From NCBI RefSeq assembly GCF_017356035.1, contig NZ_JAFIQX010000002.1:930001-994000 (forward strand): a DNA stretch of 64,000 nt. Reading direction: 5' to 3'. Origin of the DNA: Longitalea luteola. Lineage in GTDB: Bacteria > Bacteroidota > Bacteroidia > Chitinophagales > Chitinophagaceae. The number at the start of each line of letters is the position of its first letter. The stretch's first letter is position 1. Positions 1-54,172 of the stretch are shown here, piece by piece. Made by a program: the position numbers and the translations under genes. The notes beneath the pieces were generated by a model that saw nothing but the letters and a program-made list of their open reading frames with translations, ran no database searches and was not told the DNA's origin.

Positions 1-306
1 TGGTTCAGCTCATTTGGCGATGCGCCCGGTGGTTTCAAAGAAGAAATGAAAGAGTTCCAGCTGTCACTGGGTGCCGAATATGCTTATAACGATCAGTTCT
101 TTGTGCGCGCCGGTTATTTTTATGAGGATAAGAACAAAGGCAACCGTAAATATTTCACCGTTGGTTTAGGTGTTAAATACAATGTGTTTGGTTTGAATTT
201 CTCTTACCTCGTGCCTTCGGGTTCAGGGGTTAACCGCAACCCATTGTCGAACACCCTGCGTTTCGGCCTCATCTTCGACCTCGACGATATTGGAACTGTT
301 GAATAA
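1..306 (+). CDS. porV: PorV/LptO, T9SS outer-membrane protein, C-terminal part (5' truncated)
   Basis: The reading frame is open from the first base and ends with TAA at 304-306, giving about 101 residues of a longer protein. Seen: alternating beta-strand segments typical of an outer-membrane barrel, including FSSFGDAPGGF, RAGYFYEDKNKGNRKYFTVG and LGVKYNVFGLNFSYLVPSG, and a C-terminal NPLSNTLRFGLIFDLDD segment. These match what I know of PorV (LptO), the barrel of the type IX secretion system that takes part in cargo release and surface attachment with PorU. The N-terminus lies outside the window, so full length and signal peptide cannot be judged. The stop codon is the first three bases of an octamer array, and a hairpin terminator follows at about 393-420. 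Confidence 0.85.
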   Translation, partial: WFSSFGDAPGGFKEEMKEFQLSLGAEYAYNDQFFVRAGYFYEDKNKGNRKYFTVGLGVKYNVFGLNFSYLVPSGSGVNRNPLSNTLRFGLIFDLDDIGTVE

Positions 307-343
307 TTTGATAATTTGCTAATGTGATAATGTGATAATGACG
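304..343 (+). repeat. Octamer array, unit TAAT(T/G)TGA, five units
   Basis: Units TAATTTGA, TAATTTGC, TAATGTGA, TAATGTGA and TAATGACG follow without gaps. The first unit supplies the TAA stop of porV. It is the left arm of an inverted pair with the array at 421-457. Confidence 0.9.
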
Positions 344-392
344 TTCGCGCATTTGAAACAGACCACATAAAAGTAGAAATGAATATATTTGA

Positions 393-420
393 AGCGTCCT
401 GCACAGCAGGGCGCTTTTTT
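393..420 (+). terminator. Hairpin terminator after porV
   Basis: Stem AGCGTCCTGC (393-402), loop ACA, stem GCAGGGCGCT (406-415) with one G-U pair, then a run of T. It lies in the core between the two inverted octamer arrays. Confidence 0.8.
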
Positions 421-457
421 ATTATCGAATTATCATATTATCACATTATTAAATTAT
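421..457 (+). repeat. Octamer array, unit ATTATC(A/G)(A/C/T), inverted partner of 304-343
   Basis: Units ATTATCGA, ATTATCAT, ATTATCAC and ATTATTAA, then ATTATG. The unit is the reverse complement of the array at the porV end. The ATG of ispF (456-458) falls in the last unit. Confidence 0.9.
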
Positions 458-932
458 GAGGATTGGTTTCGGAATAGATTTTCATCAGTTAACAGAAGGC
501 AGGGATCTTTGGATAGGCGGTGTTAAAATTCCCCATCATAAAGGCGCGCTGGGCCACAGCGATGCCGATGTATTGTTACACGCAATTTGCGATGCATTGC
601 TGGGTGCTCTTGCCCTGGGCGATATCGGTATGCATTTCCCCAATACCGATCCGGCTTACAAAGACATTGACAGCAAGATACTGTTACAGAAATGTTATGA
701 ATTGATCAAAGCCCGCAACTACCGGGTAATAAATGTAGATTCATCCATTTGCCTCGAAGCGCCCAAGATCAAGAAATACTCAGAGCAGATGCGCACTATT
801 ATTGCCGGTATCCTGGAGATTACCGGGCAGGATGTATCCGTAAAAGCCACTACCACTGAAACCATGGGGTTTGTGGGAAGAGAGGAGGGGCTTGTAGCCT
901 ACGCAACTGTTCTGTTAGCCCCACTTAAGTAA
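456..932 (+). CDS. ispF: 2-C-methyl-D-erythritol 2,4-cyclodiphosphate synthase
   Basis: IspF of the non-mevalonate isoprenoid pathway converts CDP-methylerythritol 2-phosphate to the cyclic diphosphate with release of CMP. The protein has 158 residues, the normal length. Visible family marks: GIDFH with metal ligands D8 and H10, the HSDADVLLHA segment with ligand H42, GDIGMHFP, and the C-terminal ATTTETMGFVGREEG segment that binds the cytidine moiety. It feeds the same precursor pool used by the carotenoid genes further on. The ATG chosen starts at the family N-terminus and lies inside the last unit of an octamer array. The TAA stop is likewise the first three bases of another array. Confidence 0.96.
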   Translation: MRIGFGIDFHQLTEGRDLWIGGVKIPHHKGALGHSDADVLLHAICDALLGALALGDIGMHFPNTDPAYKDIDSKILLQKCYELIKARNYRVINVDSSICLEAPKIKKYSEQMRTIIAGILEITGQDVSVKATTTETMGFVGREEGLVAYATVLLAPLK

Positions 933-969
933 TTTGATAATTCGATAATTTGATAATGTGACAATGGAA
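930..969 (+). repeat. Octamer array after ispF
   Basis: Units TAATTTGA, TAATTCGA, TAATTTGA, TAATGTGA and a decayed CAATGGAA. The first unit contains the ispF stop. It is the left arm of an inverted pair with 1033-1072 around a core of about 63 bp. Confidence 0.9.
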
Positions 970-1032
970 TACAGGGTTTTGTGAGTGCTGGCGCGTGAGA
1001 TTAAGAGTAGCAGGAAAGCCGAACATGGAGGA

Positions 1033-1072
1033 ATTATCACATTATCGAATTATCACATTATCACATTATTTT
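1033..1072 (+). repeat. Octamer array before dut
   Basis: Units ATTATCAC, ATTATCGA, ATTATCAC, ATTATCAC and ATTATTTT. The last unit runs into the -7 promoter box of dut. This strand of the array has no stop in any frame, so it creates a false N-terminal extension of dut. Confidence 0.9.
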
Positions 1073-1074
1073 TG
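1067..1074 (+). promoter_or_regulatory. TAnnTTTG -7 box of dut
   Basis: TATTTTTG fits the Bacteroidota -7 consensus exactly and ends four bases before the dut ATG. The transcript would be leaderless or nearly so. No -33 TTTG is seen 19 bases upstream, where the octamer array lies. Confidence 0.6.
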
Positions 1075-1078
1075 CGCC

Positions 1079-1522
1079 ATGTCGAAAGTAAAAGTCAGGA
1101 TCATTAACGAGTCAAATAATCCGTTGCCCGAATATGCTACGGAAATGGCTGCCGGTATGGATATACGCGCTTTCCTGGAGGCGCCCATTGTATTAAATCC
1201 CCTGGAACGGTTTTTAGTGCCTACCGGTTTGTTCATTGAACTGCCTGCTGGTTACGAAGCGCAGATCCGCCCGCGCAGCGGATTGGCCATCAAACAGGGA
1301 CTTACCTGTTTGAACAGCCCCGGCACCATAGATGCCGATTATCGCGGCGAGGTTAAAATTATTCTGATAAATTTATCCCAGGAGCCCCAAACCATTCACC
1401 CAGGCGATCGTATTGCTCAAATGGTGGTACACGAGGTAGAACGTGTAAAATGGAAACCCGTTAAATCAATTTCGGTAACCAAACGCCACGATGGCGGATT
1501 TGGTCATACCGGTAAATCGTAA
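1079..1522 (+). CDS. dut: dUTP diphosphatase (dUTPase)
   Basis: Hydrolyses dUTP to dUMP and diphosphate, keeping uracil out of DNA and supplying dUMP for thymidylate. The protein has 147 residues, normal for the trimeric enzyme. All five motifs are visible in order: [32 protein letters not shown] with the catalytic Asp, RIAQMV, and the C-terminal arm [10 protein letters not shown] that closes on the substrate. The frame is open upstream to 995, but those 28 codons translate the octamer array, and homologues start at MSKVK, so the ATG at 1079 is chosen. The next gene begins 3 bp after the stop, so the two are probably cotranscribed. Confidence 0.96.
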
Positions 1523-1525
1523 TAC

Positions 1526-2344
1526 ATGAAATATTTCGCAGGCATTGGAATTATTGCCCTGGTAATGGCTGCAACCAGCAGTTGCAGATCTACAAAAACA
1601 ATTCAAACAGCGATTGCCAAGAAAGATACAGCTCAGGTGATCCCGGTAGTTGATCATCGTGCCGATTCCATGCTTTATATTAAACAGGTTTGGGATAACA
1701 TTGGTAAGAACCATATAGATTTTCAAACATTCTCGGCCAAGATCAAAGTAGATTTTGAAGGCAGTGATGGCAAGAAGAACGACTTTAACGCCTTTGTACG
1801 AATTAAGAAAGACAGCATTATGTGGATCAACATCAATGCTGCACTGGGCTTCGATGCATTCAGGGTGCTGGTTACGCCTGATAGCGTGAAAGTGATCAAC
1901 AAGCTTAACAAAACGGTACAAATGCGGTCAGTAGGATCTCTGCAGGAAGTAACAAAAATGCCTATGAATTTCACCGACCTGCAAAATCTGATCATCGGTA
2001 ATCCTATTTTTCTCGATAGTAATATAAATTCGTATAAGAAAGATGAGCGAACCATTTCACTCATCAGTTTAGGCGTGCTGTTCAAGCACCTGCTTACGGT
2101 AAATAGAGACGATTACACCCTGCAGAACAGCAAGCTCGACGATGTGGACGCCATCAGGGCCCGGACCGCCTACCTGACGTATGGCAATTATCAGAGTAAA
2201 AACGGGATTCGGTTCTCAACCTATCGTAAAATTACGGTGTCGGAGAAGTCGAAGCTGGATATAGTGATGGAATTCAAACAATTTGACTTTAACGTCGATT
2301 TAAGTTTTCCGTTCACGATCCCGAAAAATTATAAGCGTAAATAA
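1526..2344 (+). CDS. DUF4292 family lipoprotein
   Basis: A 272-residue protein with a lipoprotein signal: a hydrophobic stretch GIGIIALVMAATSSC ending in a lipobox, with Cys20 as the acylation site. The body resembles the DUF4292 family of Bacteroidota (for example KIKVDFEGSDGKKNDFNAFVRIKKDSI and the KNYKRK C-terminus). By its alternating beta strands it may have a LolA/LppX-like fold, which is inference. It starts 3 bp after dut and ends 92 bp before an EnvC-like gene. A role in moving or sensing envelope lipid would suit the fold, but no function is shown by the sequence. Confidence 0.75.
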   Translation: MKYFAGIGIIALVMAATSSCRSTKTIQTAIAKKDTAQVIPVVDHRADSMLYIKQVWDNIGKNHIDFQTFSAKIKVDFEGSDGKKNDFNAFVRIKKDSIMWININAALGFDAFRVLVTPDSVKVINKLNKTVQMRSVGSLQEVTKMPMNFTDLQNLIIGNPIFLDSNINSYKKDERTISLISLGVLFKHLLTVNRDDYTLQNSKLDDVDAIRARTAYLTYGNYQSKNGIRFSTYRKITVSEKSKLDIVMEFKQFDFNVDLSFPFTIPKNYKRK

Positions 2345-2436
2345 GCGTTATAAAAAGTACATTCAACCCTGGAGAAACCGGCAAAACAGACCCAATTACC
2401 CTGCCCAAACCTGTTAACACTTAAAAATCTTTCAGT

Positions 2437-3840
2437 ATGCTGAAAAGGATGTTTACCTGTTTTATGGCCATGGCAGTTTCCGTTGCCCTCTTTGCGCAAC
2501 AACAACCAGGCAGCAGTGAGGAGCTGAAAAAAAAGCAGGCTGAAATACAGCGGGAAATTGATGACCTGCGCAATACGCTGAAGACAACCAAAAAGAACAC
2601 CAAAGCGGGTTTATTGCAGTTGTCGATGGTGCAGAAAAAACTGCGCCTGCGGGAACAGGCTATCAATAACATCAATCAGCAGATAAATATCATCGAGGGC
2701 ACTATCTCTAAATCTAAAAATGAGATCGAACGGTATAAGCAGGAACTGGACACGCTGAAGCAGCAATATGCCAAGAGCATTGTATATGCTTATAAAAATC
2801 GAAGTAACTACGATTTCCTGAACTTCATATTCTCAGCATCGAGTTTTAACGACGCCTTGCGCCGGGTGCAGTACCTGCGCGCTTATCGCCTCTACCGCGA
2901 AGAGCAGGCAGCTACCATCAAGAACACCCAGGTGGTGCTGCATGAAAAAATTGCAAGCCTGGAAAATACGCGTAAAGAAAAGGATGCCGTACTGCAGAAG
3001 CAGGAAAAACAGAAGGTTGAGCTGGTAGAAGAGAAAAAAGAAAAGAATGAGATCCTGAGCAAGCTCAAGGCCAGGGAAAAAGAGATCTCCAAAGAGCTGA
3101 CCGCCAAACAAAGAGCGGATAAAAAACTGAAGTCAGCCATTAAGTCTGCCATTGACCGGGAGATCCGGATCGCACGCGAAAAAGCCTTGGCAGAAGCAAG
3201 AGCCCGCGAAGCAGCAGAAGCGGCAGAAAATGCACGCAAAGCCGCCGCGGCAGAAGCCGCCAGGAAAGCTGCTGCAGAAAAGGCCGAAAGAGAAAAAGCA
3301 ACTGCCGGTACTTCACCCGCCCCCACACCCGCCGCTACGGCGCCTGTGGCCAAAGCGGAGCCTAAAAAAGAAGCCCCCAAAAAACCGGCTGCCGAGAGCG
3401 TACTTGAAGCAACACCTGAAGGTTTCCGAATCAGCGGCAGCTTCGAAAGTAATAAAGGCAAATTACCCTGGCCAGTTGAAAAAGGCAATGTGAAGATCCA
3501 TTTTGGTACCTATTCTATTGAAGGCACCAAATTGCGTGGAAACAACCCCGGTATAACCCTGGCCACAGACCCGGGAGCAGTGGTAAGAGCCGTATTTGAA
3601 GGCGAGGTGTCGCGCATATTTGATATCGACGGCAACTGGAGCGTGCTGGTTCGTCATGGAAAATACTTTACCGTATATAGTAACCTCTCCTCTGTAAGCG
3701 TATCGAAAGATCAGAAGATCGCCGGTGGTACCGTACTGGGCCGCGCTGCCGCCAATGATGAAGGCAATGGCGAAATTGAATTTCTGCTGATGCAGGAAAA
3801 CCGGAACCTGAATCCGGAAACCTGGATACGCAAAAGGTAA
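2437..3840 (+). CDS. EnvC-like protein with degenerate LytM (M23) domain, copy 1
   Basis: 467 residues: signal peptide (1-20, ending ALFAQ), a long coiled coil rich in Lys, Glu and Gln (about 25-245), an Ala/Lys/Pro-rich linker (about 245-325), then a LytM domain starting at KLPWPVEKG. The M23 metal ligands are mostly replaced: HFGTY is present but lacks the usual downstream Asp, HGKYFTVYSNL has Asn where active enzymes have the His of YxHL, and IEFLLM stands where HFEL is expected. Such proteins (EnvC, NlpD) do not cut peptidoglycan but activate amidases at the division site, which is the likely role. A paralogue follows directly, so this is a tandem duplication. The linker composition throws long false antisense frames. 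Confidence 0.88.
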   Translation: MLKRMFTCFMAMAVSVALFAQQQPGSSEELKKKQAEIQREIDDLRNTLKTTKKNTKAGLLQLSMVQKKLRLREQAINNINQQINIIEGTISKSKNEIERYKQELDTLKQQYAKSIVYAYKNRSNYDFLNFIFSASSFNDALRRVQYLRAYRLYREEQAATIKNTQVVLHEKIASLENTRKEKDAVLQKQEKQKVELVEEKKEKNEILSKLKAREKEISKELTAKQRADKKLKSAIKSAIDREIRIAREKALAEARAREAAEAAENARKAAAAEAARKAAAEKAEREKATAGTSPAPTPAATAPVAKAEPKKEAPKKPAAESVLEATPEGFRISGSFESNKGKLPWPVEKGNVKIHFGTYSIEGTKLRGNNPGITLATDPGAVVRAVFEGEVSRIFDIDGNWSVLVRHGKYFTVYSNLSSVSVSKDQKIAGGTVLGRAAANDEGNGEIEFLLMQENRNLNPETWIRKR

Positions 3841-3846
3841 AATAAT

Positions 3847-3920
3847 CAATTGGCTATTGGCAATATGCAATTGGCAAGCTGCGTTTCCTACTTTGCCTAT
3901 TGCCAATTGTTTATTGCCTT
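3847..3920. repeat. Inverted repeat between the EnvC-like genes
   Basis: CAATTGGCAA (3868-3877) is the exact reverse complement of TTGCCAATTG (3900-3909). Both arms are flanked by further partial copies of the same motif (ATTGGCAA, TATTGCC) at roughly 8-base spacing. It looks like a decayed member of the octamer inverted-pair family. Confidence 0.7.
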
Positions 3921-3941
3921 TTAATAGTAAAATCTGCCCCT

Positions 3942-5186: not shown

Positions 5187-5189
5187 CAG

Positions 5190-5224
5190 GCTGAAGGCAC
5201 AAGGCGTACGGCTCAAGGCACACA
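5190..5224 (+). repeat. Heptamer array, unit AGGC(T/A)(G/C)A
   Basis: Units AGGCTGA, AGGCACA, AGGCGTA, CGGCTCA and AGGCACA. It starts 3 bp after the stop of EnvC copy 2 and is inverted relative to 5344-5371. Confidence 0.85.
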
Positions 5225-8050: not shown

Positions 8051-8085
8051 AGCCTTCGGCGTTAGGCCTTCAGCCTTCAGCATTT
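8051..8085 (+). repeat. Heptamer array, unit (A/G)GCCTTC
   Basis: Units AGCCTTC, GGCGTTA, GGCCTTC, AGCCTTC and AGCATTT. It ends 7 bp before the ATG of the next gene. Confidence 0.85.
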
Positions 8086-8525: not shown

Positions 8526-8567
8526 AACTTTGAACTGTAAACTTTAAACTATGAACGGTTAAACTGC
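8526..8567 (+). repeat. Heptamer array, unit AACTTTA
   Basis: Units AACTTTG, AACTGTA, AACTTTA, AACTATG and AACGGTT. The array contains the stop codon (8559-8561) of the minus-strand methyltransferase. A weak inverted partner, TTAAAGTTTTAAGTTC, follows the stop of the gene at 8467. Confidence 0.75.
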
Positions 8568-10964: not shown

Positions 10965-11058
10965 GCTTCAGCCTTTAGCTTTTGGCTGCCCTGCGCCTTT
11001 AGCTTTCAGCCTTCAGCCTTTAGCCTTGAGCCTTCAGCCTTTAGCCTTTAGCCTTGAG
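10965..11058 (+). repeat. Heptamer array, unit AGCCTT(C/T/G)
   Basis: About a dozen heptamers. The clean right half reads AGCCTTC, AGCCTTT, AGCCTTG, AGCCTTC, AGCCTTT, AGCCTTT, AGCCTTG. Variation is almost wholly at the seventh base. It ends about 30 bp before the transporter start. Confidence 0.9.
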
Positions 11059-11088
11059 CTTTTATAATATTCCATAAATATCGATCAA

Positions 11089-21596: not shown

Positions 21597-21757
21597 AGCG
21601 TTCCGCGTTCCGCGTTCTGCGTTCCGCGTTCCGCGTTCTGCGTTTTGCGTTCCGCGTTCCGCGTTCTGCGTTCTGCGTTCCGCGTTTTGCGTTCCGCATT
21701 CAGCGTTCAGCGTTCAGCGTTTTGCGTTCAGCGTTCAGCGTTCCGCGTTCAGCGTTA
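21597..21757 (+). repeat. Long heptamer array, unit GCGTT(C/T)(C/T/A/G), about 22 units
   Basis: The longest array in the window. The unit is GCGTTCC, with GCGTTCT, GCGTTTT and GCGTTCA variants in a mixed order; the first five bases hardly vary. It ends in the stop codon (21755-21757) of the DUF4288 gene. No inverted partner is seen. Confidence 0.95.
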
Positions 21758-22114
21758 AAATAACTGCAAATATTTGTGTGTATTGCTTGCTTTAATATGA
21801 GCGGCTTTTTTATGCACCAGGTCCATATACACGCCGGCATCATCAGTCTCCTGTATGCGCGAATACAGTTCGGCGCCATCGATCAGGGCTGATATTTTAT
21901 ACAGCTCACAAACATTCACAAATTGCCAGCTGACCAGTTTTTGTTGTTGGTTCAGGAACATTTCCTGTTCCTGCTCCCCAATGGCTTTTGCTTTATCGAA
22001 TGCCTCGTTTTCGTCAGCGGCCTGTACCAGTCGTAACTGCTCATCAAACTGTGCCGTGTGGTCGCCTTCACCACAAACGATCCTATACACTATTTTTGCC
22101 AGAAACCAGTTCAT
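21755..22114 (-). CDS. DUF4288 domain protein
   Basis: 119 residues, cytoplasmic by composition. The opening MNWFLAKIVYRIVCGEG followed by HTAQFDEQLRLVQAADENEAFDKAKAIGEQE is the DUF4288 pattern. No enzymatic motif is visible and the family has no known function. It sits between the LiaF-like and kinase genes on the same strand. The stop codon is the last part of the heptamer array, so the C-terminal residues up to LQLF are the last unaffected codons. Confidence 0.78.
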   Translation of the reverse strand: MNWFLAKIVYRIVCGEGDHTAQFDEQLRLVQAADENEAFDKAKAIGEQEQEMFLNQQQKLVSWQFVNVCELYKISALIDGAELYSRIQETDDAGVYMDLVHKKAAHIKASNTHKYLQLF

Positions 22115-22151
22115 AGACTAATTTTTTAATGGTTGGGTGTAACTAGTATTA

Positions 22152-23042
22152 TTAATAGCTTTTTATTTCAATGCCACCGAAGAAAGTAGTGCCATTCAGG
22201 ATGACCACTTTGTCTTCATCATAATTGGTTTGGGGAGGGCGTTTGTCTTCAATGCCGCCAAAAACGGCAACCACTGTATCTGAGCGTATCTGCCAGTGTG
22301 GGGGAACAATCAGCTTGGCGCCGCCGAATATCTGCACCATTTCAATAACTATCGATCCGTTGAAATCTGCCTGCGATAAATTGATCTCTGCGCCGCCAAA
22401 GATGGACACAATGTCGCCGCCTTTGAATTTTTTTGAATACACCAGTTTTTTAACACTGCCAAAGACGGTTACTACATCGAGCCAGTTATCGCCGTTTTTT
22501 CTTTCCGTTTGACGTGCAGGTACTACCATTGATTCAGGCTGTTCAACGGTTGGAATATGCTCTGTAAGAGGTGCCTGTTGCTCGTGCTGACCGGCCTGGT
22601 CCTGCTGCCAGTGCCCCTTGTCATGCATTTCCCTGTATTTATTCCAGTGTTCATGCCACCGGCGGTGACGGCGCGGGGCCAGGATGATGATCAGGCCCAG
22701 GGCTATGATAACGACCGGCCAAATGAACAGGTGTATATTAGTATCGGGCCAGATGATCTGCAGTAAGAACACCGTGCCTACGCCACAGATCACCACCCAA
22801 CCCGGGTCGCGAAACGCATTGCCGGCGCCGGCCAGTAAACCGAAAGCAACGATGATCATAGGCCAGGTAAATAGCCAGGTGGGAAGGGGAACCCCAAAAG
22901 CTCTTAACAGCAGCAGGGTACCAATGCACAGTAACAGCAGTCCGGCCAGCACGCTGCCGCTTCTATTAGGCCTTTTAAAAAACTCTTTCCGGTGAGCTTT
23001 TCTAAAGGCTTTCCGCTGTTCCCTGAGTGTATTGTCGCGCAT
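22152..23042 (-). CDS. LiaF-like membrane protein (cell-wall stress response type)
   Basis: 296 residues: a basic N-terminus, four membrane segments (about 28-120, including LLLLCIGTLLLLRAFGVPLP and FIWPVVIIALGLIIIL), a charged linker, then a C-terminal beta-helical domain with repeated FGG turns (VFGSVKKLVYS, IFGGAEINLSQ, IFGGAKLIVPP, VFGGIEDKRPP, FFGGIEI). This is the LiaF / cell-wall-active-antibiotic-response layout. In Firmicutes LiaF holds the LiaS kinase in check. Here a LytS-type kinase and LytTR regulator lie just downstream, so a similar role is a fair inference. Confidence 0.85.
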   Translation of the reverse strand: MRDNTLREQRKAFRKAHRKEFFKRPNRSGSVLAGLLLLCIGTLLLLRAFGVPLPTWLFTWPMIIVAFGLLAGAGNAFRDPGWVVICGVGTVFLLQIIWPDTNIHLFIWPVVIIALGLIIILAPRRHRRWHEHWNKYREMHDKGHWQQDQAGQHEQQAPLTEHIPTVEQPESMVVPARQTERKNGDNWLDVVTVFGSVKKLVYSKKFKGGDIVSIFGGAEINLSQADFNGSIVIEMVQIFGGAKLIVPPHWQIRSDTVVAVFGGIEDKRPPQTNYDEDKVVILNGTTFFGGIEIKSY

Positions 23043-23185: not shown

Positions 23186-23224
23186 ATTATCACATTATCA
23201 AATTATGACATCATCACATTATCT
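23186..23224 (+). repeat. Octamer array, unit ATTATCA(C/A)
   Basis: Units ATTATCAC, ATTATCAA, ATTATGAC, ATCATCAC and ATTATCTC. On the minus strand it encodes the last codons and TGA stop (23214-23216) of the Crp/Fnr gene. No inverted partner is found upstream. Confidence 0.85.
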
Positions 23225-23870
23225 CGTTAATATTCCGGGATAACTTACTTCTGATGCGGCTGAGCGTTTCCAGGGTCATTCCAAGGTAAGAAGCTATAAA
23301 TTTTAGCGGCACCCGGTTCAGCAGATCGCTTTTAGTGGCTATAAAATGTTTGTATTTGGTGGTGGCTTCCATCAAGCGGGCAATGAAAGCTCTTTCTTCT
23401 GCATCGCGATAATAGGTCTCCAGTATTTTCCGCCCTACGATATTCGCTTCCGGAAAATGATCATAGAGGTATTGCAGGTCCTCCAGGTTCAGGGCCGAGA
23501 GCTCGCAATCTTCCAGAGCCTGGATATTTTCGCGGGCTGGTTGCTGTAAGCCAAAGCTGGTGATGCTCGTTACGAGTTCCTGTTCTCTCGAGATCCAGGT
23601 AGTGATCTCTTTCAGGCCTTCTTTTACATAACTGCGCAGAATTCCCTTTCTGATCAGGTAGATGCTGGAGCAGGTGCTGCCGGCGGCAACAAGCAATCCG
23701 CCTTTGGTTAACTGGCAGGGATAGGCTTTTTCGTTTATGAATGCCTGGGCTTCCGGACTAAGAGGGTATATAGATGTAACAAAATTCGTAAAGGGTGAAT
23801 CGGGAATTGCAGCTTTGGTTAACCATTGTTCCACGCCATGCGTCGGGTTTACTGTTGATGTTGTCATCAT
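23214..23870 (-). CDS. Crp/Fnr family transcription regulator
   Basis: 218 residues from the first of two adjacent Met codons: cyclic-nucleotide-binding-like domain (about 20-150; GGLLVAAGSTCSSIYLIRKGILRSYV) and a C-terminal helix-turn-helix (PLKFIASYLGMTLETLSRIRSKL). No cluster of Cys typical of Fnr iron-sulfur centres is seen. The frame remains open 50 codons further upstream, but that part has no family similarity. It is divergent from the CarH-like gene at 24102. In Thermus a Crp/Fnr protein works next to the CarH-type regulator of carotenoid genes, so a shared role here is possible though not shown. Its last residues lie in an octamer array. Confidence 0.87.
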   Translation of the reverse strand: MMTTSTVNPTHGVEQWLTKAAIPDSPFTNFVTSIYPLSPEAQAFINEKAYPCQLTKGGLLVAAGSTCSSIYLIRKGILRSYVKEGLKEITTWISREQELVTSITSFGLQQPARENIQALEDCELSALNLEDLQYLYDHFPEANIVGRKILETYYRDAEERAFIARLMEATTKYKHFIATKSDLLNRVPLKFIASYLGMTLETLSRIRSKLSRNINEIM

Positions 23871-24100: not shown

Positions 24101-24101
24101 G

Positions 24102-34118: not shown

Positions 34119-34126
34119 TATGGCAA

Positions 34127-34189
34127 AGGCGTAAAGCTGAAGGCAGAAGGCTGAAGGCACAAGGTTAAGGCGCAAAGCGGAAGGCAACA
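34127..34189 (+). repeat. Heptamer array, unit AGGC(A/T)(G/C)A
   Basis: Units AGGCAGA, AGGCTGA, AGGCACA, AGGTTAA, GGCGCAA, AGCGGAA and GGCAACA (34141-34189), with a looser start from 34127. Same family as 5190-5224. Confidence 0.75.
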
Positions 34190-35459: not shown

Positions 35460-35512
35460 AGTTCACTAATTCACTCCTTTCAAAGATAAAAAATTGGTGG
35501 CTAATGGGCAAA

Positions 35513-35561
35513 GGTCAATGGTCAATGGTGAATGGTCAATGGTGAATGGTCAATGGTCAAT
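35513..35561 (+). repeat. Heptamer array, unit GGT(C/G)AAT, seven units
   Basis: Seven perfect units; only the fourth base varies (C, C, G, C, G, C, C). Inverted relative to 35684-35711 around a core of about 122 bp. Confidence 0.95.
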
Positions 35562-35683
35562 CGGCACTCCGTTACCGCCAATGGTTTGGCGAACAAATTG
35601 CCAGTCAAGGAAGGCAGGCAGTCAGCAATGATTTCCACCGGCGAATAGTCGATTATTAATTCCAAATCTACCGAGCTGCTCAT

Positions 35684-35711
35684 CATTCACCATTGACCAT
35701 TCACCATTCCG
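35684..35711 (+). repeat. Heptamer array, unit CATT(C/G)AC, inverted partner
   Basis: Units CATTCAC, CATTGAC, CATTCAC and CATTCCG. The array ends at the base before the stop codon of the M20 gene (35712-35714). Confidence 0.92.
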
Positions 35712-37150: not shown

Positions 37151-37193
37151 AAGGCTGAAGGCAGGTTACCAGTTGCCAGGTACCAGTTACCGG
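37151..37193 (+). repeat. Heptamer array, unit AG(G/T)TACC
   Basis: Units AGGTTACC (one extra base), AGTTGCC, AGGTACC, AGTTACC, preceded by AGGCTGA-type units. Inverted relative to 37243-37277. Confidence 0.8.
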
Positions 37194-37242
37194 GCCTCAA
37201 ATTAATGGCTGGTTGAGTACAGGCGGGCAATCCGCATTAAAG

Positions 37243-37277
37243 TCCTGGCTCCTGGCGCCCGGTAACCGGTAACTTTT
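37243..37277 (+). repeat. Heptamer array, inverted partner
   Basis: Units TCCTGGC, TCCTGGC, GCCCGGT, AACCGGT and AACTTTT, 18 bp before the stop of the CDF gene. With 37151-37193 it can fold into a long imperfect stem. Confidence 0.78.
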
Positions 37278-44291: not shown

Positions 44292-44324
44292 TCCTAACGC
44301 AGTATAGCTAGCTGTCAACTTGTT

Positions 44325-44356
44325 AAATCCTCCCGGTACTCCGGGAGGATTTTTTT
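44325..44356 (+). terminator. Terminator after rpsP
   Basis: Perfect 12-bp stem AAATCCTCCCGG / CCGGGAGGATTT with loop TACT, then six T. Confidence 0.92.
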
Positions 44357-44408
44357 CGTTTATACACTTCTTCCTGGCGACCGGGAATCAGCTGTTATGG
44401 TGAATTTC

Positions 44409-44460
44409 ATTTGCCCATTTGCCCATTTGCTAATTTGCACATTTGCTAATTTGCCCATTG
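44409..44460 (+). repeat. Octamer array, unit (C/A)ATTTGC(C/T/A)
   Basis: Units CATTTGCC, CATTTGCC, CATTTGCT, AATTTGCA, CATTTGCT, AATTTGCC, CATTGATC. Every unit holds a TTTG; the one at 44442-44445 lies 21 bases before the rimM -7 box and could act as its -33 element. Confidence 0.92.
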
Positions 44461-44466
44461 ATCAAC

Positions 44467-44474
44467 TACCTTTG
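44467..44474 (+). promoter_or_regulatory. TAnnTTTG -7 box of rimM
   Basis: TACCTTTG, ten bases before the rimM ATG, directly after the octamer array. Confidence 0.6.
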
Positions 44475-44484
44475 CCGGGCATAT

Positions 44485-45000
44485 ATGACGAACTATCACA
44501 GCATTGGAAAAATAGTGGCCACTTTTGGTGTAAAGGGCGAAGTGGTGCTGCACCACTCACTGGGTAAGAAAACCTCGTTAAAAGGGCTTGAAACCATTTT
44601 TATCGAGGAAAAGAAAGAAGAAATGCTGCCTTATTTCCTGGAAGGCACCCGCATAAAAAATGACGAGGAATTGTTCCTCAAATTTGAAGGAATCAATACC
44701 AGGGAAGCGGCGCACCGCCTGATGCAGAAACGCGTGTGGCTGCCCCAGGAGGAGTTTGAAAAATATGTTTCCCAGTCGGCCCCTATTATGTTGCTTGGTT
44801 TTCATATCATCAATCAGGGCACCGACCTGGGCGAAATACTCGAGATCATTGAGCAACCGCACCAGCTGCTATGCCGCATCGATTTAAAGGGCAAGGAAGC
44901 GCTTATTCCGGTACATGAAGATTTCCTGCTGAAGATCGATAAAAAGAAAAAACAGGTGCATGTAGAGCTGCCTGAGGGGCTGCTTGATATATACAGTTAA
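44485..45000 (+). CDS. rimM: Ribosome maturation factor RimM
   Basis: Assists assembly of the 30S head and binds S19. 171 residues from MTNYHSIGKIVATFGVKGEV, the family start (14 in-frame upstream codons discarded). The N-terminal barrel carries GEVVLHHSLGK and the PRC-barrel half carries LGFHIINQGTDLGEI..IPVHEDFLLKIDKKKKQVHVELPEGLLDIYS, the usual ending. The expected neighbour trmD is not here. The stop codon is the first three bases of an octamer array. Confidence 0.93.
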   Translation: MTNYHSIGKIVATFGVKGEVVLHHSLGKKTSLKGLETIFIEEKKEEMLPYFLEGTRIKNDEELFLKFEGINTREAAHRLMQKRVWLPQEEFEKYVSQSAPIMLLGFHIINQGTDLGEILEIIEQPHQLLCRIDLKGKEALIPVHEDFLLKIDKKKKQVHVELPEGLLDIYS

Positions 45001-45037
45001 TGTGATAATGTGATAATTCGATAATGTGATAATGCTC
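44998..45037 (+). repeat. Octamer array, unit TAATGTGA
   Basis: Units TAATGTGA, TAATGTGA, TAATTCGA, TAATGTGA, TAATGCTC. The first gives the rimM stop. Inverted relative to 45098-45134 around a 60-bp core. Confidence 0.93.
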
Positions 45038-45097
45038 AAAAATCGAGCAGTTCTTAGAATTTCGAACCCCATGCGAAACCGAACGAAAAGGTTTTCA

Positions 45098-45134
45098 ATT
45101 ATCAAATTATCACATTATCAAATTATCGAATTAT
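45098..45134 (+). repeat. Octamer array, unit ATTATCA(A/C), inverted partner
   Basis: Units ATTATCAA, ATTATCAC, ATTATCAA, ATTATCGA, ATTAT. It contains the stop (45123-45125) of the minus-strand DinB-fold gene and encodes its last residues. Confidence 0.93.
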
Positions 45135-45751: not shown

Positions 45752-45780
45752 CTACCGGTTACCAGTTACCGGTTTGCCGG
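45752..45780 (+). repeat. Heptamer array, unit TTACC(A/G)G
   Basis: Units CTACCGG, TTACCAG, TTACCGG and TTTGCCGG. Same family as 37151-37277 and as the array inside the pseudouridine synthase gene at 52690. Confidence 0.75.
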
Positions 45781-45876
45781 GGCAGAAGACCCGCCTTCCT
45801 TAAGCTTTGGCGAACGAAGTAAAGCATAAATTCGGGCAGTGCAAGATCGGTTATCAGGTTTACATTTCGCGAGCTA

Positions 45877-45944
45877 TTCACCATTGACCATTCACCATTG
45901 ACCATTCACCATTGACCATTCACCATTGACCATTCACCATTGAC
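45877..45944 (+). repeat. Heptamer array, unit CCATT(G/C)A, about nine units
   Basis: CCATTGA and CCATTCA alternate regularly. The array ends at the base before the stop of the Crp/Fnr gene (45945-45947). Confidence 0.95.
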
Positions 45945-46529
45945 CTATTCAATGCGAACACTTGCCATCAGTTTGCTGAAGGTGGTGGCATCCATGCCTA
46001 AATAAGAGGCCAGGTATTTATGAGGTATTAACTGCAACACGTGTGGACTCCGTTTGAGTAATGTTTTAAACTTTTCTTCGGCGCTGAATGTTTGTAATTC
46101 CACCTGTCGTTCCAGCACGCCCATGAGGGCAAAGGCCGTAAAATTTGCGAGCAGCTTCTCGATATTCCGGTATTTGTTCATCAATTGTTGGATCTGAGTA
46201 TGTGTTGTGCGCAACAGGGTGCTGCTGGTCAATGTCTCCAGGAAATACCGGGAAGGCGTTTGGGTAAGAAAGGAATCGGCAATGCCGGAAAAAGAGTAGG
46301 GATAAGTGAATACAAGCGTTGCTTCATGGGTGGCATCGATATAAAAAATGCGCTGAACGCCATTTAAAACAAAGTACACATGGCGTTCGGTTTCACCGGC
46401 AGCAGTAAGAATGGTTTTTCTTTTGTACTGGTGTAATTGCCAGATGCCCGACATCTCCTCCCATTCTGTTTCGCTGAGCGGATGCATACTGAATAAATGT
46501 TTCTTTAGTTGCTGTAGTCCTTCTTCCAA
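45945..46529 (-). CDS. Crp/Fnr family transcription regulator
   Basis: 194 residues: cyclic-nucleotide-binding-like domain (KRKTILTAAGETERHVYFVLNGVQRIFY) and C-terminal helix-turn-helix (IPHKYLASYLGMDATTFSKLMAS). No Fnr Cys cluster. The frame is open to an ATG at 46622, but those 31 residues (MRSFVGTAALLLP...) translate the dispersed palindrome, so I prefer the TTG at 46527-46529, which begins the family-like LEEGLQQLKKHLFSMHPLSE. A later ATG at 46487 would remove conserved residues. Start is uncertain; the identity is not. Confidence 0.83.
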   Translation of the reverse strand: MEEGLQQLKKHLFSMHPLSETEWEEMSGIWQLHQYKRKTILTAAGETERHVYFVLNGVQRIFYIDATHEATLVFTYPYSFSGIADSFLTQTPSRYFLETLTSSTLLRTTHTQIQQLMNKYRNIEKLLANFTAFALMGVLERQVELQTFSAEEKFKTLLKRSPHVLQLIPHKYLASYLGMDATTFSKLMASVRIE

Positions 46530-46663: not shown

Positions 46664-46740
46664 GATGCCGCCCGCAGGCGTCGGCATGGGGAAATACAGC
46701 AAGCATAAAAAAGTTATGAGTTAGGGGTAGAAGCCCTATT

Positions 46741-46775
46741 AGCTACCAGCTACCGGCCACTAGCCATTAGCCACT
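46741..46775 (+). repeat. Heptamer array, unit AGC(T/C)A(C/T)(C/T)
   Basis: Units AGCTACC, AGCTACC, GGCCACT, AGCCATT and AGCCACT. Confidence 0.75.
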
Positions 46776-46809
46776 TGCTGATAATTAACGTAAATTCGCT
46801 TCTGATTGC

Positions 46810-46858
46810 CCATTGACCATTGCCCATTGACCATTCACCATTGCCCATTCACCATGAA
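46810..46858 (+). repeat. Heptamer array, unit CCATT(G/C)(A/C), seven units
   Basis: CCATTGA, CCATTGC, CCATTGA, CCATTCA, CCATTGC, CCATTCA, CCATGAA. The start codon of DNA polymerase IV (46854) is in the last unit. Confidence 0.95.
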
Positions 46859-48814: not shown

Positions 48815-48845
48815 GATTGATAAAAGAATCATTGTATACATGCGT

Positions 48846-48880: not shown

Positions 48881-48881
48881 T

Positions 48882-49673: not shown

Positions 49674-49907
49674 AGGACAACCGGTAATTTATATACTTAA
49701 AGTTACATATATCAGTTTGCCCGGGCAAAACGCAGTTGCTGATCCCAAGAAACGAAGTTGCGGCAGCCGATTCACGCAGCTAACTATGATCATTAAGCTA
49801 TCGCTGATTATTTAATGTTTAAAGGTGTACCGTTTCTGCAAACGCCATAATAAAATGTGGCGCACCTGCATTTTAAATGATTTATCTTCCATTAAAATTT
49901 CGGTCAC

Positions 49908-51179: not shown

Positions 51180-51185
51180 TTGGAA

Positions 51186-51234
51186 AGTTAACCAGTTGAC
51201 GAGTTAACTAGTTAACTGGTTAACTCGCCAACTT
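51186..51234 (+). repeat. Self-complementary octamer array, unit AGTTAACT
   Basis: Units AGTTAACC, AGTTGACG, AGTTAACT, AGTTAACT, GGTTAACT and CGCCAACT fill the gap between two convergent genes. The unit is itself a palindrome, so the whole block folds on itself. It ends at the base before the stop of the RluA-type gene. Confidence 0.88.
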
Positions 51235-51954
51235 TTATGAGTTTTTACGAAGCTGTTGCAGTAACGCCCTCATATCCTTCGGCATTTCGGCCTGCAGATC
51301 GTACTTATTGCCCTGCATATCGGTAAAACATAAGCGTTGAGCGTGCAGGCCGGTCCTGGAAAGAATGGGCCGTTCTTCTTCCTCGTTTTTCGAGAGTTTA
51401 TAATTGCGTTTAAAAGAAGAGATCTTTACAGGCAGGCCGTCGCCATACAATTCATCGCACACCAATGGGTGACCCACATATTGCATATGCACCCTGATCT
51501 GGTGCGTGCGGCCCGTATGAATCCGGAACTGCAGCAGCGAAAACTTCCCGAATTCTTCCAGCACTTCATAGTCGGTAACGGCAGGCTTACCATTCTTGTG
51601 AATGAGCATGACGCCTCTTTTAACGGTGCTTTCCCTGATGGCCGCGTCGATGGTCTTTTGTTTTTCCGGTAAGGTACCGGTAACAATGCCCTGGTAGTAT
51701 TTTTCTACGGTTCTTTCTTCGAATGCCTGTGACAGGAACTTGTGGGTTTCGGGGTCTTTGGCAAATACAATGATGCCGCTGGTCTCGCGGTCGAGGCGGT
51801 GCACCGTAAATACCTGCTCATATTTCTGCAGCAACAGATCCTTAAGGGATGTTTCTTTTCCCTCGCGGTCGGGAATGCTTAACAGTCCCGGCGGTTTATT
51901 TATTACAATAAGATATTCGTTCTCGAAAATGATCTCCGGTGATAATTTAACCAC
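51235..51954 (-). CDS. RluA family pseudouridine synthase
   Basis: 239 residues of the RluA/TruC-type catalytic fold without an S4 domain. Catalytic D55 is in VHRLDRETSGIIVFAKD; FRIHTGRTHQIRVHMQYVGHPLVCDELYG is the second family motif. It overlaps the upstream RluB-type gene by 8 bp, so the two synthases are probably cotranslated. The target RNA position cannot be stated. Confidence 0.92.
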   Translation of the reverse strand: MVKLSPEIIFENEYLIVINKPPGLLSIPDREGKETSLKDLLLQKYEQVFTVHRLDRETSGIIVFAKDPETHKFLSQAFEERTVEKYYQGIVTGTLPEKQKTIDAAIRESTVKRGVMLIHKNGKPAVTDYEVLEEFGKFSLLQFRIHTGRTHQIRVHMQYVGHPLVCDELYGDGLPVKISSFKRNYKLSKNEEEERPILSRTGLHAQRLCFTDMQGNKYDLQAEMPKDMRALLQQLRKNS

Positions 51955-53122
51955 GTGTAACGGTTTTGTTTTTTGTATAGGAGGCGTTCAGGTATTTTAA
52001 CAGGCGTACTTCTTTCTCTGTTAAAAAGCGCCATTTGCCTCGGTCTACATTCTTTTTAGTGAGGTTTGCGTACATCACGCGGTCGAGGTTGCGTACATCG
52101 TAACCCATGTGTTCGAATATACGGCGAACGATGCGGTTGCGGCCGCTGTGGATCTCGATCCCGATCACGCTTTTGTCTTTTGGATCGGCATAAGCAAGTG
52201 AATCAGGCGCAATAAAACCATCTTCGAGGGTAATACCGTTCACGATGGTGTCGAAATCTTTTTTTATGAGCGGCTTATCAAGTTTTACTTCGTAGATCTT
52301 TTTTATTTCGTAACTGGGGTGCGATAGTTTTTGGGCCAACTCACCATCATTGGTGAGTAACAATACACCGGTAGTGTTCCTGTCTAAACGGCCGATCGGG
52401 TACACGCGTTCTTCTGTAGCATTCCGTATAATGTCGAGAACCGTTTTTCTTCCTTGCGGGTCTTCGGTCGTGGTGATATAATCCTTGGGTTTGTTAATGA
52501 GGATATATACCAGGTTCCTGCGGATGAACAGCTTTTTGCCGTTCACTTTGATATCGTCTTTGTCGGTCACTTTATGACCGGGCTCTATGATCTTTTCTCC
52601 ATTCACGATCACCTTGCCTGCTTTTACCAGGTCGGCTGCATCGCGGCGGGAACAGATGCCGGCATGAGCAATGAATTTGTTCAGGGGCATGCTGCCGGTT
52701 ACCGGTTGCCGGTTGCCAGTTGCCGGTTGGTTCTCGCCCACCTGGCCTTTCCCTTGTGCTGCGGCCCTGATGCCGGTTTGTGGTTTGTTGTTTGTGGTTT
52801 GTGGTTTGGTTCGCGCACCTTCCGCTTTCCCGAACTTTGCCTTCGGCTTTTGGTATTCGGTTCTTTCGCTGCCTTTCTCTATGCCTTTATGCCTTTTTGC
52901 CTCGTTGCCTTTTTCTATCCCCTGCTTAAAATCCTTTCTGCCTCTTTCCGACTGGTAACCACCTGCCTGACCCTGGGCTCTTGCCTCCCGGGCTTCCTGC
53001 TTTTTCTTTTCAAAGTATTCTTTGGTTTCCTGGCGCACCTTTTTCTTTTCCTGGCGGATGCGTTCTTTCTTTTTGGCGCCGCTGTCGCCCTTGTCCATAA
53101 ATTTCTTGAATCCTTGTGCCAT
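51947..53122 (-). CDS. RsuA/RluB family pseudouridine synthase with long low-complexity N-terminal region
   Basis: 391 residues. An N-terminal region of about 150 residues, rich in Lys, Glu, Gln and Arg (MAQGFKKFMDKGDSGAKKKERIRQ...), precedes the S4 domain (PLNKFIAHAGICSRRDAADLVKAGKVIVNGEKI) and the catalytic domain with PIGRLDRNTTGVLLLTND. The region just before S4 (KPQTTNNKPQTG and QPATGNRQPVTGS) is coded by two heptamer arrays, at 52777-52811 and 52690-52731, so the linker seems to have grown from the same repeats found between genes. The ATG at 53122 is preferred over one at 53170; a TACCTTTG box lies 38 bp upstream. Confidence 0.87.
   Translation of the reverse strand: MAQGFKKFMDKGDSGAKKKERIRQEKKKVRQETKEYFEKKKQEAREARAQGQAGGYQSERGRKDFKQGIEKGNEAKRHKGIEKGSERTEYQKPKAKFGKAEGARTKPQTTNNKPQTGIRAAAQGKGQVGENQPATGNRQPVTGSMPLNKFIAHAGICSRRDAADLVKAGKVIVNGEKIIEPGHKVTDKDDIKVNGKKLFIRRNLVYILINKPKDYITTTEDPQGRKTVLDIIRNATEERVYPIGRLDRNTTGVLLLTNDGELAQKLSHPSYEIKKIYEVKLDKPLIKKDFDTIVNGITLEDGFIAPDSLAYADPKDKSVIGIEIHSGRNRIVRRIFEHMGYDVRNLDRVMYANLTKKNVDRGKWRFLTEKEVRLLKYLNASYTKNKTVTRG
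52690..52731 (+). repeat. Heptamer array inside the RluB-type gene, unit GGTTGCC
   Basis: Units GGTTACC, GGTTGCC, GGTTGCC, AGTTGCC and GGTTGGT, preceded by a TGCTGCC. On the coding strand it gives the QPATGNRQPVTG part of the linker. Confidence 0.9.
52777..52811 (+). repeat. Heptamer array inside the RluB-type gene, unit TTTGTGG
   Basis: Units TTTGTGG, TTTGTTG, TTTGTGG, TTTGTGG, TTTGGTT. On the coding strand it gives the KPQTTNNKPQT part of the linker. Different unit from its neighbour at 52690. Confidence 0.9.
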
Positions 53123-53159
53123 GTGTAGTAGTTTGCTGTTTTTCAACAGTAGTGAGCGG

Positions 53160-53167
53160 CAAAGGTA
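53160..53167 (-). promoter_or_regulatory. TAnnTTTG -7 box of the RluB-type gene
   Basis: TACCTTTG on the minus strand, 37 bases before the preferred ATG at 53122 and directly after the terminator of the upstream gene. Confidence 0.55.
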
Positions 53168-53173
53168 CAAAAT

Positions 53174-53203
53174 AAAAAACTCTCCCGGTTTTTGCCGGGA
53201 GAG
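53174..53203 (-). terminator. Terminator of the Spy-like gene
   Basis: Perfect 9-bp stem CTCTCCCGG / CCGGGAGAG; on the minus strand it is followed by six T. It lies 23 bp after the stop at 53227. Confidence 0.9.
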
Positions 53204-53226
53204 CGGTAACGATAAACAGTGAGCCT

Positions 53227-53859
53227 TTATGATTGAACAGGCTTTCCGTGCCTGCGATTCTTCTTCAGCTCCTGGTATTTATTCCATTGGTCTGCGGTCA
53301 GGATCGATTTCAGGTTTTCCTGCTGCTGGGTATGCAAGGTTTTGTACTGTTGTTTCTTTTGATCTTCGGTCAGTGATTTGTCATCATGCACTGCTCTCAT
53401 CTTTATCTGGCTTTCAGAAAAATGCTTTTCCACAGCGGCTCTTTGCTCAGCGGTTAAGTTCAGTTCCTGCTGCATTCTGTCAATGCGGTTATGTTTATCC
53501 TGGCGGAACTTTTTGCCGTGCGGCTTCATCTTTTTCAGCTCAGCTTTTTGCCCGGCCGTAAGCACCTTATCTACTTTTTCATGACGATCTTTACGAATCG
53601 TGGCCATTTTGCTTTTCCATTCGGTAACGGTGATCCTGTCCTCACTCTTTTTAAGATCGGTCATCTGTTGTTTGAAGTCTTCGTTTATCGACTTCATAGC
53701 TGTTTTCTGCTCATCGGTTAAATTAAGCTGTTGCAGCTTATCATAACGTTGGTGGTGTCGTTTGGGACGGTCGTTAAAGCTCATCGACTGATCATCCTGT
53801 GCACTGGCGCCAAGCGCTACAAAAGTGGCTAACGCTATTCCTACAATTGCTTTTTTCAT
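53227..53859 (-). CDS. Spy/CpxP-like exported helical protein
   Basis: 210 residues with a signal peptide (MKKAIVGIALATFVALGASAQ). The mature part is almost all helix, rich in Lys, Gln and His, with five LTxxQ-type motifs (LTDEQK, LTAGQK, LTAEQR, LTEDQK, LTADQW), the mark of the Spy/CpxP superfamily of periplasmic chaperones and stress sensors. At about twice the length of one Spy core it may hold two copies. HH and KH pairs might bind metal. Role in envelope stress is inferred from the family. Confidence 0.83.
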   Translation of the reverse strand: MKKAIVGIALATFVALGASAQDDQSMSFNDRPKRHHQRYDKLQQLNLTDEQKTAMKSINEDFKQQMTDLKKSEDRITVTEWKSKMATIRKDRHEKVDKVLTAGQKAELKKMKPHGKKFRQDKHNRIDRMQQELNLTAEQRAAVEKHFSESQIKMRAVHDDKSLTEDQKKQQYKTLHTQQQENLKSILTADQWNKYQELKKNRRHGKPVQS

Positions 53860-54034
53860 ACTTGTCTATTTTACTGTTTAGATGCCGGTTGGGTTGTTAG
53901 CCTTCGGCACGGTTTGTTAATTAAATCTTTTAAACAGTATTGTAGACGGCAGTTGGAGAAGCAGGTTTAATTCGTGTATGAATATCTTCGTAGATGGAGT
54001 TATTCAAGGATGAGCGGTGGCGTTAACAAGTTCT

Positions 54035-54123
54035 TAAGTTTCCTAAGTTCCTAAGTTATTAAGTTATTAAGTTATTAAGTTCCTAAGTTCATAAGTTATT
54101 GAGTTCCTAAGTTATTAACTTAA
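54035..54123 (+). repeat. Octamer array, unit TAAGTT(AT/CC/CA), about ten units
   Basis: TAAGTTCC, TAAGTTAT x3, TAAGTTCC, TAAGTTCA, TAAGTTAT, TGAGTTCC, TAAGTTAT, after a 9-base TAAGTTTCC. Only the last two bases vary. It fills much of the 314-bp gap 53860-54173, inverted relative to 54141-54172; nothing else is recognisable in that gap. Confidence 0.93.
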
Positions 54124-54140
54124 ATTCAGTCGCGAGGTTT

Positions 54141-54172
54141 GAATAACTGAATAACTGAATAACTGAATAACT
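54141..54172 (+). repeat. Octamer array, four perfect GAATAACT units
   Basis: Four identical units, ending one base before the stop of rlmN (54174-54176). The reverse complement AGTTATTC resembles the AGTTATTA of the partner array. Confidence 0.95.

Follow-up and report, generated by a model that had tools for sequence, protein, structure and literature searches.

What are the short degenerate tandem arrays that stand between so many genes of Longitalea luteola? The question is raised by a stretch of 64,000 nucleotides (the window; positions 930001-994000 of contig C22, NZ_JAFIQX010000002.1, in the 7.30-Mb, 43-contig assembly GCF_017356035.1), in which an earlier note had described arrays with units of seven or eight bases, differing from place to place and sharing one architecture. 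The arrays are real, non-random and common to the genus; the observation is confirmed in part, and the interpretation then given to it is likewise supported in part. Converging pairs of the same unit occur in excess, arrays are polarised with respect to gene ends and pile up at stop codons, and two dispersed core sequences carry arrays as arms. We favour, with moderate confidence, the reading that many of the arrays form the arms of small elements that are dispersed between genes and probably mobile.

Period and abundance of the arrays

The window was analysed together with positions 1-400000 of the same contig, a sample of 464 kb. A self-written period detector and Tandem Repeats Finder served to call the arrays, and a self-written hexamer caller the genes, whose edges are approximate. 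Periods 7 and 8 dominate, as the earlier note had claimed: 85 of 102 tandem arrays have one or the other (61 of period 7, two of them within genes, and 24 of period 8, one within a gene), 82 of these 85 lie outside predicted genes, and all remaining periods from 3 to 30 contribute 17 arrays in total. Three rounds of Markov-2 resampling produced 0.3 arrays of period 7, 0.0 of period 8 and a maximum of 0.7 at any period. Against this background the spectrum of the sample has peaks at 7 and 8, and the arrays are not scattered equally inside genes; neither of the outcomes that the earlier note had named as fatal to its claim was found.

Arrays were detected where that note had placed them, and 25 of the 26 in the window have period 7 or 8. 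Its estimate that they fill about half of the intergenic regions is too high: an array is present in 18 of 52 gaps in the window (gaps of at least 20 bp, periods 7, 8, 9 and 11, with a looser detector setting) and in 56 of 320 gaps of at least 30 bp in the 464 kb, arrays being denser in the window than elsewhere in the sample. As a share of intergenic bases, they account for 12.3% in the window and 3.9% in the 400-kb stretch.

The closest relative among the named records is Longitalea arenae (97%, query protein), followed by Niastella species (Chitinophagaceae). Comparison with relatives extends the result, since peaks at periods 7 and 8 recur in five other genomes of the genus and in the one labelled G018, with minor peaks at 9 or 11 in some. 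Genome G013 has two period-7 arrays in 100 kb, and a 21-kb locus of Niastella vici contains no period-7 array, one of period 8 and two of period 11.

Placement at gene ends and converging pairs

In the counts of pairs, polarity, stop edges and heptamer variation, orthologous arrays of related genomes were counted separately, so that Fisher values for the polarity counts do not give probabilities of independent events. In seven genomes, 95 of 121 arrays nearest to and at most 60 bp from a stop codon are rich in G on the sense strand (95:26), and 78 of 92 near a start codon are rich in C (14:78); ties and arrays devoid of G and C are left out of both figures. With the octamer family removed, the proportions are 71/97 at stops and 63/77 at starts. 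The family TAATKTGA is nearly strict (31:0 after stops, 1:22 before starts), and CTGTAAC and CAAACYA take both orientations after stops (4:6 and 5:10) and mainly one before starts (10:1 and 6:1). After stops, polarity is weak or absent in G018 (9:5), Niastella soli (4:3) and genome G005 (7:7).

Array edges touch a stop codon or lie at most 3 bp from it 87 times, against 25.5 by random placement (maximum 42 in 200 rounds), a pile-up that may be inflated where a stop codon inside an array itself sets the gene end. At start codons, 19 edges compare with 15.9 by random placement. In the 464 kb, arrays occupy 4 of 59 divergent gaps, 42 of 218 co-directional gaps and 10 of 43 convergent gaps.

The arrays had been described as separate objects, a picture that is incomplete because many are paired and some pairs enclose a dispersed core. 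Among 169 pairs of the same period within one gap, 52 are inverted copies of one unit, against 17.9 expected, and 27 are direct copies, against 17.0. Octamer pairs stand in converging order 81 times in L. luteola, 48 in L. arenae, 4 in Niastella caeni and 78 in G005, overlapping registers of one array counting separately, and in the opposite order 4, 0, 0 and 0 times; the four exceptions, among those listed, have the self-complementary TAATTAGCTAAT at one end. At position 8, both arms tend to be of the same type, A or C (correlation 0.70). Unit by unit, they are unmatched (17/131, against 0.179 with shuffled partners; 44 elements), and the idea of a perfect hairpin was rejected because the arms match no better than with shuffled partners.

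The word AATACA occurs beside arrays of many families (34 cases at a distance of 0-4 bp). It was considered as a mark of all arrays and discarded, the excess at gap level being only modest: gaps with both AATACAG and an array number 5 (4.4 expected) in L. luteola, 7 (3.2) in L. arenae, 7 (3.6) in N. caeni, 7 (3.8) in G005, 1 (1.6) in Niastella sp. OAS944, 4 (2.2) in N. soli and 2 (2.5) in G018.

Two dispersed cores with array arms

Core 1 is a 67-bp consensus obtained from the aligned centres of octamer pairs, and its arms are octamers; core 2 is 43 bp long and has mostly heptamer arms. The core-1 model (R1) contains 18 copies, 17 of them from the genomes searched. The core-2 model (R2) was built from seven copies and found more places than the four given by a first regular-expression search. 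Up to 150 candidates per genome were scored, so the counts are lower bounds: core 1 matches at least 16 times in L. luteola, 5 in L. arenae, 2 in N. caeni, 22 in G005 and once in G013, and core 2 at least 23, 7, 5 and 14 times in the first four of these genomes. Among the candidates scored, no core 1 was found in G018 and no core 2 in G018 or G013.

The arms recur in copies that did not enter the models. Of 30 core-1 copies fetched, 14 belong to the model and 16 are new; the new ones have octamer arms on both sides in 11 cases, on one side in 4 and on neither in 1 (15/16 armed), the armless copy being the G013 match, which is probably false. Gap midpoints, used as a control, gave 13, 12 and 601. 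For core 2, where the arm criterion is looser than the array criterion of the period spectrum, 23 new copies have arms on both sides in 15 cases, on one side in 6 and on neither in 2 (21/23 armed), and the control gave 40, 98 and 488. Its left arms are mostly of the GGCAAT, CGGCAAA or AAGGCAA type and its right arms of the ATTSACC or TTTCACG type; the core is retained between copies, whereas the arm unit varies.

Four of the model copies lie in the window. The octamer element at 930..1069 (+ strand; R1, 44.2 bits) consists of an arm at 930-966, core 1 at 966-1031 and an arm at 1033-1069. A second, at 44998..45134 (- strand; R1, 27.1 bits), lies between convergent genes, with arms at 44998-45034 and 45097-45134 around core 1 at 45034-45096. 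The heptamer element at 35498..35709 (+; R2, 30.4 bits) has a TGGTSAA arm at 35498-35569, core 2 at 35637-35677 and a TTSACCA arm at 35680-35709, and that at 45753..45945 (+; R2, 32.7 bits) has a TACCGGT array at 45753-45774, core 2 at 45834-45875 and an ATTSACC arm at 45876-45945 that ends on a stop codon. In the 464 kb, core 1 is present at two places and core 2 at six; seven of the eight are model copies and the eighth is weak (E 0.0039).

No consensus RNA fold was found for core 1, and hence no claim of a structured RNA is made. A search of the window against Rfam at gathering thresholds gave no match, and in the open-licence literature we found neither a description of these core pieces nor a paper on Niastella and intergenic tandem repeats. 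At C22:254588-255086 (locus L013) of L. luteola, three local copies of a sequence of about 48 bp between converging GTTTATG arrays may represent a third core.

Unit families and position-limited variation

The claim that the unit differs between arrays is overstated, the four largest clusters taking 29, 12, 12 and 8 of the 82 intergenic arrays (clusters by single linkage at one mismatch, so that related families are chained together). Seeding of a new unit at each locus was considered, and is contradicted by families common to many loci. Exact patterns for two families match 241 and 265 times in L. luteola (7.3 Mb; 0 and 1 for reversed controls) and 195 and 148 times in L. arenae (0 and 19), overlapping registers again counting separately. 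Elsewhere the two patterns give 31 and 25 matches (N. caeni), 150 and 0 (G005), 0 and 1 (G018) and 2 and 0 (G013), and this variation by genome indicates that unit families differ strongly between species.

Changes within an array do fall mainly on one to three unit positions, unlike random decay, and the positions are the same across loci. In four heptamer families, single changes hit the same positions at many loci, an example being TGGTCAA, in which position 5 changes from C to G at 13 loci. The 219 octamer units that flank core 1 vary at positions 5, 6 and 8, less at position 1 and hardly at positions 2, 3, 4 and 7, positions 1-4 being partly fixed by the anchoring of the units on TAAT. 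The octamer words are restricted further, TC at positions 5-6 going with a following A (24:0) and TA with a following C (19:3). Inspection of the main families TAATKTGA, GCCTTCA, GTTACAG and TGGTSAA revealed no run of three G; a GGGCAAT family in some copies does have one.

Turnover between species

Comparison of the same loci, made here between species, showed that unit, period and presence of an array often change. Among 209 orthologous gaps of L. luteola and L. arenae, arrays are present in both species in 26, against about 8 expected from the margins, in L. luteola only in 19, in L. arenae only in 12 and in neither in 152. Shared gaps often differ in unit or period: at 44292-44484, L. luteola has ATTTGCCC (period 8), L. 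arenae has ATTGCCC (period 7) and at least six Niastella genomes (orthologous loci L052-L056 and L067) have period 11. In several of these Niastella genomes the period-11 arrays form two arms of a tight, hairpin-like inverted pair.

Centres are replaced as well. In the gap at 45001-45122, core 1 is present in L. luteola and Niastella populi, while in L. arenae the octamer arms flank another centre; N. caeni has about two and a half octamer units there, and Niastella yeongjuensis and N. soli have other arrays. At 933-1078, core 1 is found in L. luteola, L. arenae and G005, and N. soli has a short octamer array in a 64-bp gap. Arms and centres are thus replaced at the same gap between species, and turnover is fast. 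Nine core-1 copies of G005 are on average 76% identical without gaps (maximum 93%), and copies up to 93% alike carry different unit orders. Their arms are on average 55% identical among G005 copies, compared with 38% between G005 and six L. luteola copies (three of the nine skipped), from which it follows that arms diverge faster than cores and are yet partly inherited with them.

Origin of the arrays

We propose an element of roughly 70-200 bp, non-coding, in which an arm of a few head-to-tail degenerate heptamers or octamers would be followed by a short centre and an inverted second arm. Both arms would point inward, and the element would span the distance from one gene boundary to the next, often beginning on a stop codon. 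Such elements may be, or may have been, mobile in the manner of the inverted doublets of repetitive extragenic palindromic (REP) sequences known as REPINs, or of foldback elements; arrays lacking a partner or core would be half or decayed elements, and length and unit order would shift by slippage and by exchange between elements. The fixed unit positions may be kept because a putative protein reads the words, and protein binding is favoured over a hairpin by the fact that the arms are unmatched unit by unit. Several observations weigh against this proposal. In the 464 kb, 8 modelled cores stand against 82 intergenic arrays, and most arrays have no assigned core; some converging pairs, such as that at 303-457 of the window, enclose no core match, and 90 of the 169 pairs within a gap belong to neither the direct nor the inverted class. 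Beyond the genus, searches of named loci and of the array-rich G018 gave no match to either core; in 29 named loci each core was found once, as a model copy inside the genus. The counts of cores and arms derive in part from a single genus and include orthologous copies. The partial inheritance of arms with their core (0.55 against 0.38) also sits badly with the proposal, a species pair too diverged to show clean empty sites yielded neither one of these nor a target-site duplication, and no transposase could be tied to the elements in a search limited to PF01797 and P0008.

A wider conjecture, which we put forward only tentatively and regard as doubtful, is a mobile class in which the inverted array ends would be shuffled or built anew at every new site without loss of the word grammar; on this view, the heptamers known from Xanthomonas, Nostoc and Beggiatoaceae would belong to the arms of related elements whose cores were overlooked, possibly moved by orphan HUH Y1 transposases. 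It is weakened by the G005 arms, which are more alike than the between-species baseline.

Plain replication slippage, by which heptamers and octamers would expand wherever selection allows, mostly between genes, with pairing and cores incidental, is rather unlikely but deserves the most weight among the alternatives. Periods 7 and 8 would reflect the stretch of DNA held by the polymerase, an idea credited to Mrazek 2007 in PMC4679880 and PMC4692102 (these and the other papers are cited here from parts of their text); array length and unit do change between sister species, and some arrays are long and perfect, such as one of at least 11 copies beside core 2. What slippage does not predict is polarity, converging pairs, unit families common to many loci or dispersed cores. 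Arrays that hug stop codons, are rare in divergent gaps and have fixed unit positions would also suit elements acting in RNA, the arms in 3' or 5' untranslated regions serving as multivalent sites for an oligonucleotide-binding (OB)-fold protein, for example a cold-shock protein, in termination, stability or translation, and CspB has been cited as binding one protein per heptamer (PMC4679880). We judge this improbable: the sequence in the sense strand after stops is not the one found before starts, so that one RNA specificity would not serve both, the unit families are many, and core 1 has no consensus RNA fold.

A special case of the mobile-element proposal, to which we give equally little credence, assigns movement of the elements to the IS200-like HUH Y1 transposase that the genus has in single copy, the arms being the analogue of REP sequences. 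One full-length gene of this kind is present at the same locus in each of L. luteola, L. arenae, N. caeni and G005, in all four with a heptamer pair immediately upstream; each genome has one strong Y1_Tnp match and three of them a second, weak one. In L. luteola the single copy lies at C39:257240-257665 (L282), a conserved locus. Its protein scores 54.8 bits with the IS200/IS605 model (cut-off 55) but 23.1 with that of REP-associated transposases (cut-off 80), and its HUH and Y motifs resemble those of subclass 1.2, which is listed for Cyanobacteria and Bacteroidetes with no REP-like structure given in the part of the source used (Quentin 2018, PMC6006769). Arrays lie near the gene at 7 of 8 named loci in the genus, against 246 of 1118 gaps in general; this is, however, one orthologous locus, whose counts are not independent, and outside the genus the figure is only 4 of 22. 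Among 50 named genomes, the 37 with a Y1 match have 137 arrays in 734 kb (65 in 572 kb for those outside the genus) and the 13 without have 9 in 265 kb. This suggested the transposase as a general driver, which the family sample did not bear out: 78 of 147 genomes have a match, and stretches totalling 120 kb from 12 genomes with a strong match contain 5 arrays, against 11 arrays in the 321 kb from 20 genomes with none, several genomes being common to both sets and sampled at other places. No match is present in Terrimonas ferruginea (L113), which has 5 arrays, and the array-rich G018 has weak or broken matches only. In Sediminibacterium and Sphingobacteriia, the array-rich loci L085, L086 and L118 (8, 8 and 11 arrays) are from genomes with a Y1 match and the array-free L087, L091-L095, L097 and L115 from genomes without one, possibly a single gain or loss at the level of the clade.

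Other arrays in the window

A converging octamer pair at 303..457 (arms 303-340 and 421-457) fills the gap between two co-directional genes, its left arm beginning on the stop codon TAA and its right arm running into an ATG; its centre has no R1 match. This centre reads like a hairpin followed by a T-run, resembling a terminator, and is found also in L. arenae and G005. Converging GTTACC-type heptamer arrays occupy 37165..37273 (37165-37191 and 37243-37273).

Several heptamer arrays on the + strand adjoin gene ends: AACTKTR at 8526..8556 beside a stop codon, GCCTTYA at 10988..11062 ahead of a start codon, and GCGTTCN at 21598..21756, of 22.7 copies, which abuts a stop codon and has a shorter, degenerate version in L. 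arenae. Others on this strand are GCCTTCR at 8052..8084, recognised by array detection, GAAGGCW at 34126..34164 between convergent genes, and two arrays at 46736..46855, the second of which (ATTSACC/ATTGCCC) runs into the ATG of the gene at 46854. Octamer arrays include a single one on the - strand at 23186..23229, over the stop codon of the gene at 23214-23870, and two on the + strand, ATTTGCCC at 44408..44459, in the gap at 44292-44484 compared above, and AGTTAACT at 51186..51233, which fills a 55-bp gap between convergent genes. Two more (TAAGTTMY and TGAATAAC) lie ahead of a stop codon at 54040..54172. Three arrays (two of period 7, one of period 8) are found at 52695..52910 inside the predicted gene 51947-53122, presumably an RluB pseudouridine synthase; the stretch is of low complexity and linker-like, and the heptamer there encodes a seven-residue protein repeat.

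Elsewhere in the genome of L. luteola, the palindrome CCTGCCTGCCGGCAGGCAGG, which looks like an ordinary REP-type repeat, recurs in gaps at C22:81992, 134349, 139943 and 348834, in some cases beside ATCTC-type octamers. One 43-bp sequence is present without change in the gaps at C22:3291-4122 and 21988-22653; it resembles the 3' portion of a tRNA gene, as at an integration site.

Relation to known repeats

The earlier note saw the nearest parallel in the short tandemly repeated repetitive (STRR) sequences of heterocystous cyanobacteria. These are heptamer arrays between genes and to our knowledge are not known as element arms; here, the host is a member of Bacteroidota and octamers are common. 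Foldback elements, eukaryotic and far larger, have inverted ends built of tandem sub-repeats, a feature found also in the present elements. Like miniature inverted-repeat transposable elements (MITEs), these are dispersed and non-coding and have inverted ends, the inversion being at family level and not unit by unit.

Xanthomonas heptamers are a closer parallel than STRR sequences in degeneracy, converging pairs and gene-end polarity (Rehm 2015, PMC4692102). They are written GGGAATC or (GGGANTN)n, with GGGGA(C/T)T in Nostoc, have mostly about four units, and form 70 and 75 converging pairs in two Xanthomonas. The likeness extends to intergenic degenerate heptamers with fixed and free positions, a sense orientation after stops and antisense before starts, overlap with stop codons, rarity between divergent genes, and occupation of the same gap with variation between species. 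Pairing and polarity of this type are present in our genomes, weakly in G018 and with polarity absent after stops in G005. Most outward features having been reported there (PMC4692102), the kind as such is already known. In the part of that paper used, no general association with mobile elements is reported and one family is considered in each genome; by that description, the present repeats are set apart by octamers, many unit families per genome and dispersed cores, and their main families lack the quadruplex-forming G-tracts of the Xanthomonas heptamers.

The statement that such arrays had no description in Bacteroidota does not hold, TAACTGA heptamer arrays having been reported in five Bacteroidetes and some Cyanobacteria (MacGregor 2015, PMC4679880). 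Those arrays are likewise intergenic, but consist of one unit, mostly just upstream of starts and in one orientation, with related heptamers rarely repeated and no cores described in the text used. Over-representation of heptamers in bacterial genomes has been reported, with polymerase slippage as proposed cause (PMC4679880, PMC4692102), and Mrazek 2007 is cited in PMC4679880 for heptamers as the commonest class in most genomes. REPINs and REP sequences with their associated tyrosine transposases (Bertels and Rainey 2011, PMC3116915; PMC6006769) share with our elements the small intergenic inverted doublets and a single-copy Y1-type transposase in the genome, but REP arms are single palindromic words, imperfect palindromes of 20-40 bp, whereas the arms here are tandem heptamers or octamers. 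Small dispersed repeats of Nostoc, named in PMC3116915, may be relevant. The BrickBuilt MITE of Porphyromonas gingivalis (PMC4596501) is another dispersed intergenic element with a tandem array in Bacteroidetes; its 23-nt repeats lie mid-element between a leader and a tail, unlike the heptamers and octamers at both ends here.

New in the present repeats are the octamers, the many families per genome, the families without G-tracts and the dispersed cores. The octamer family, which lacks G-tracts, indicates that arrays can converge and be polarised without the quadruplexes that have been discussed for Xanthomonas. If dispersed elements do have such arrays as their arms, one explanation would cover the origin of the arrays, their polarity and their preference for gene ends.

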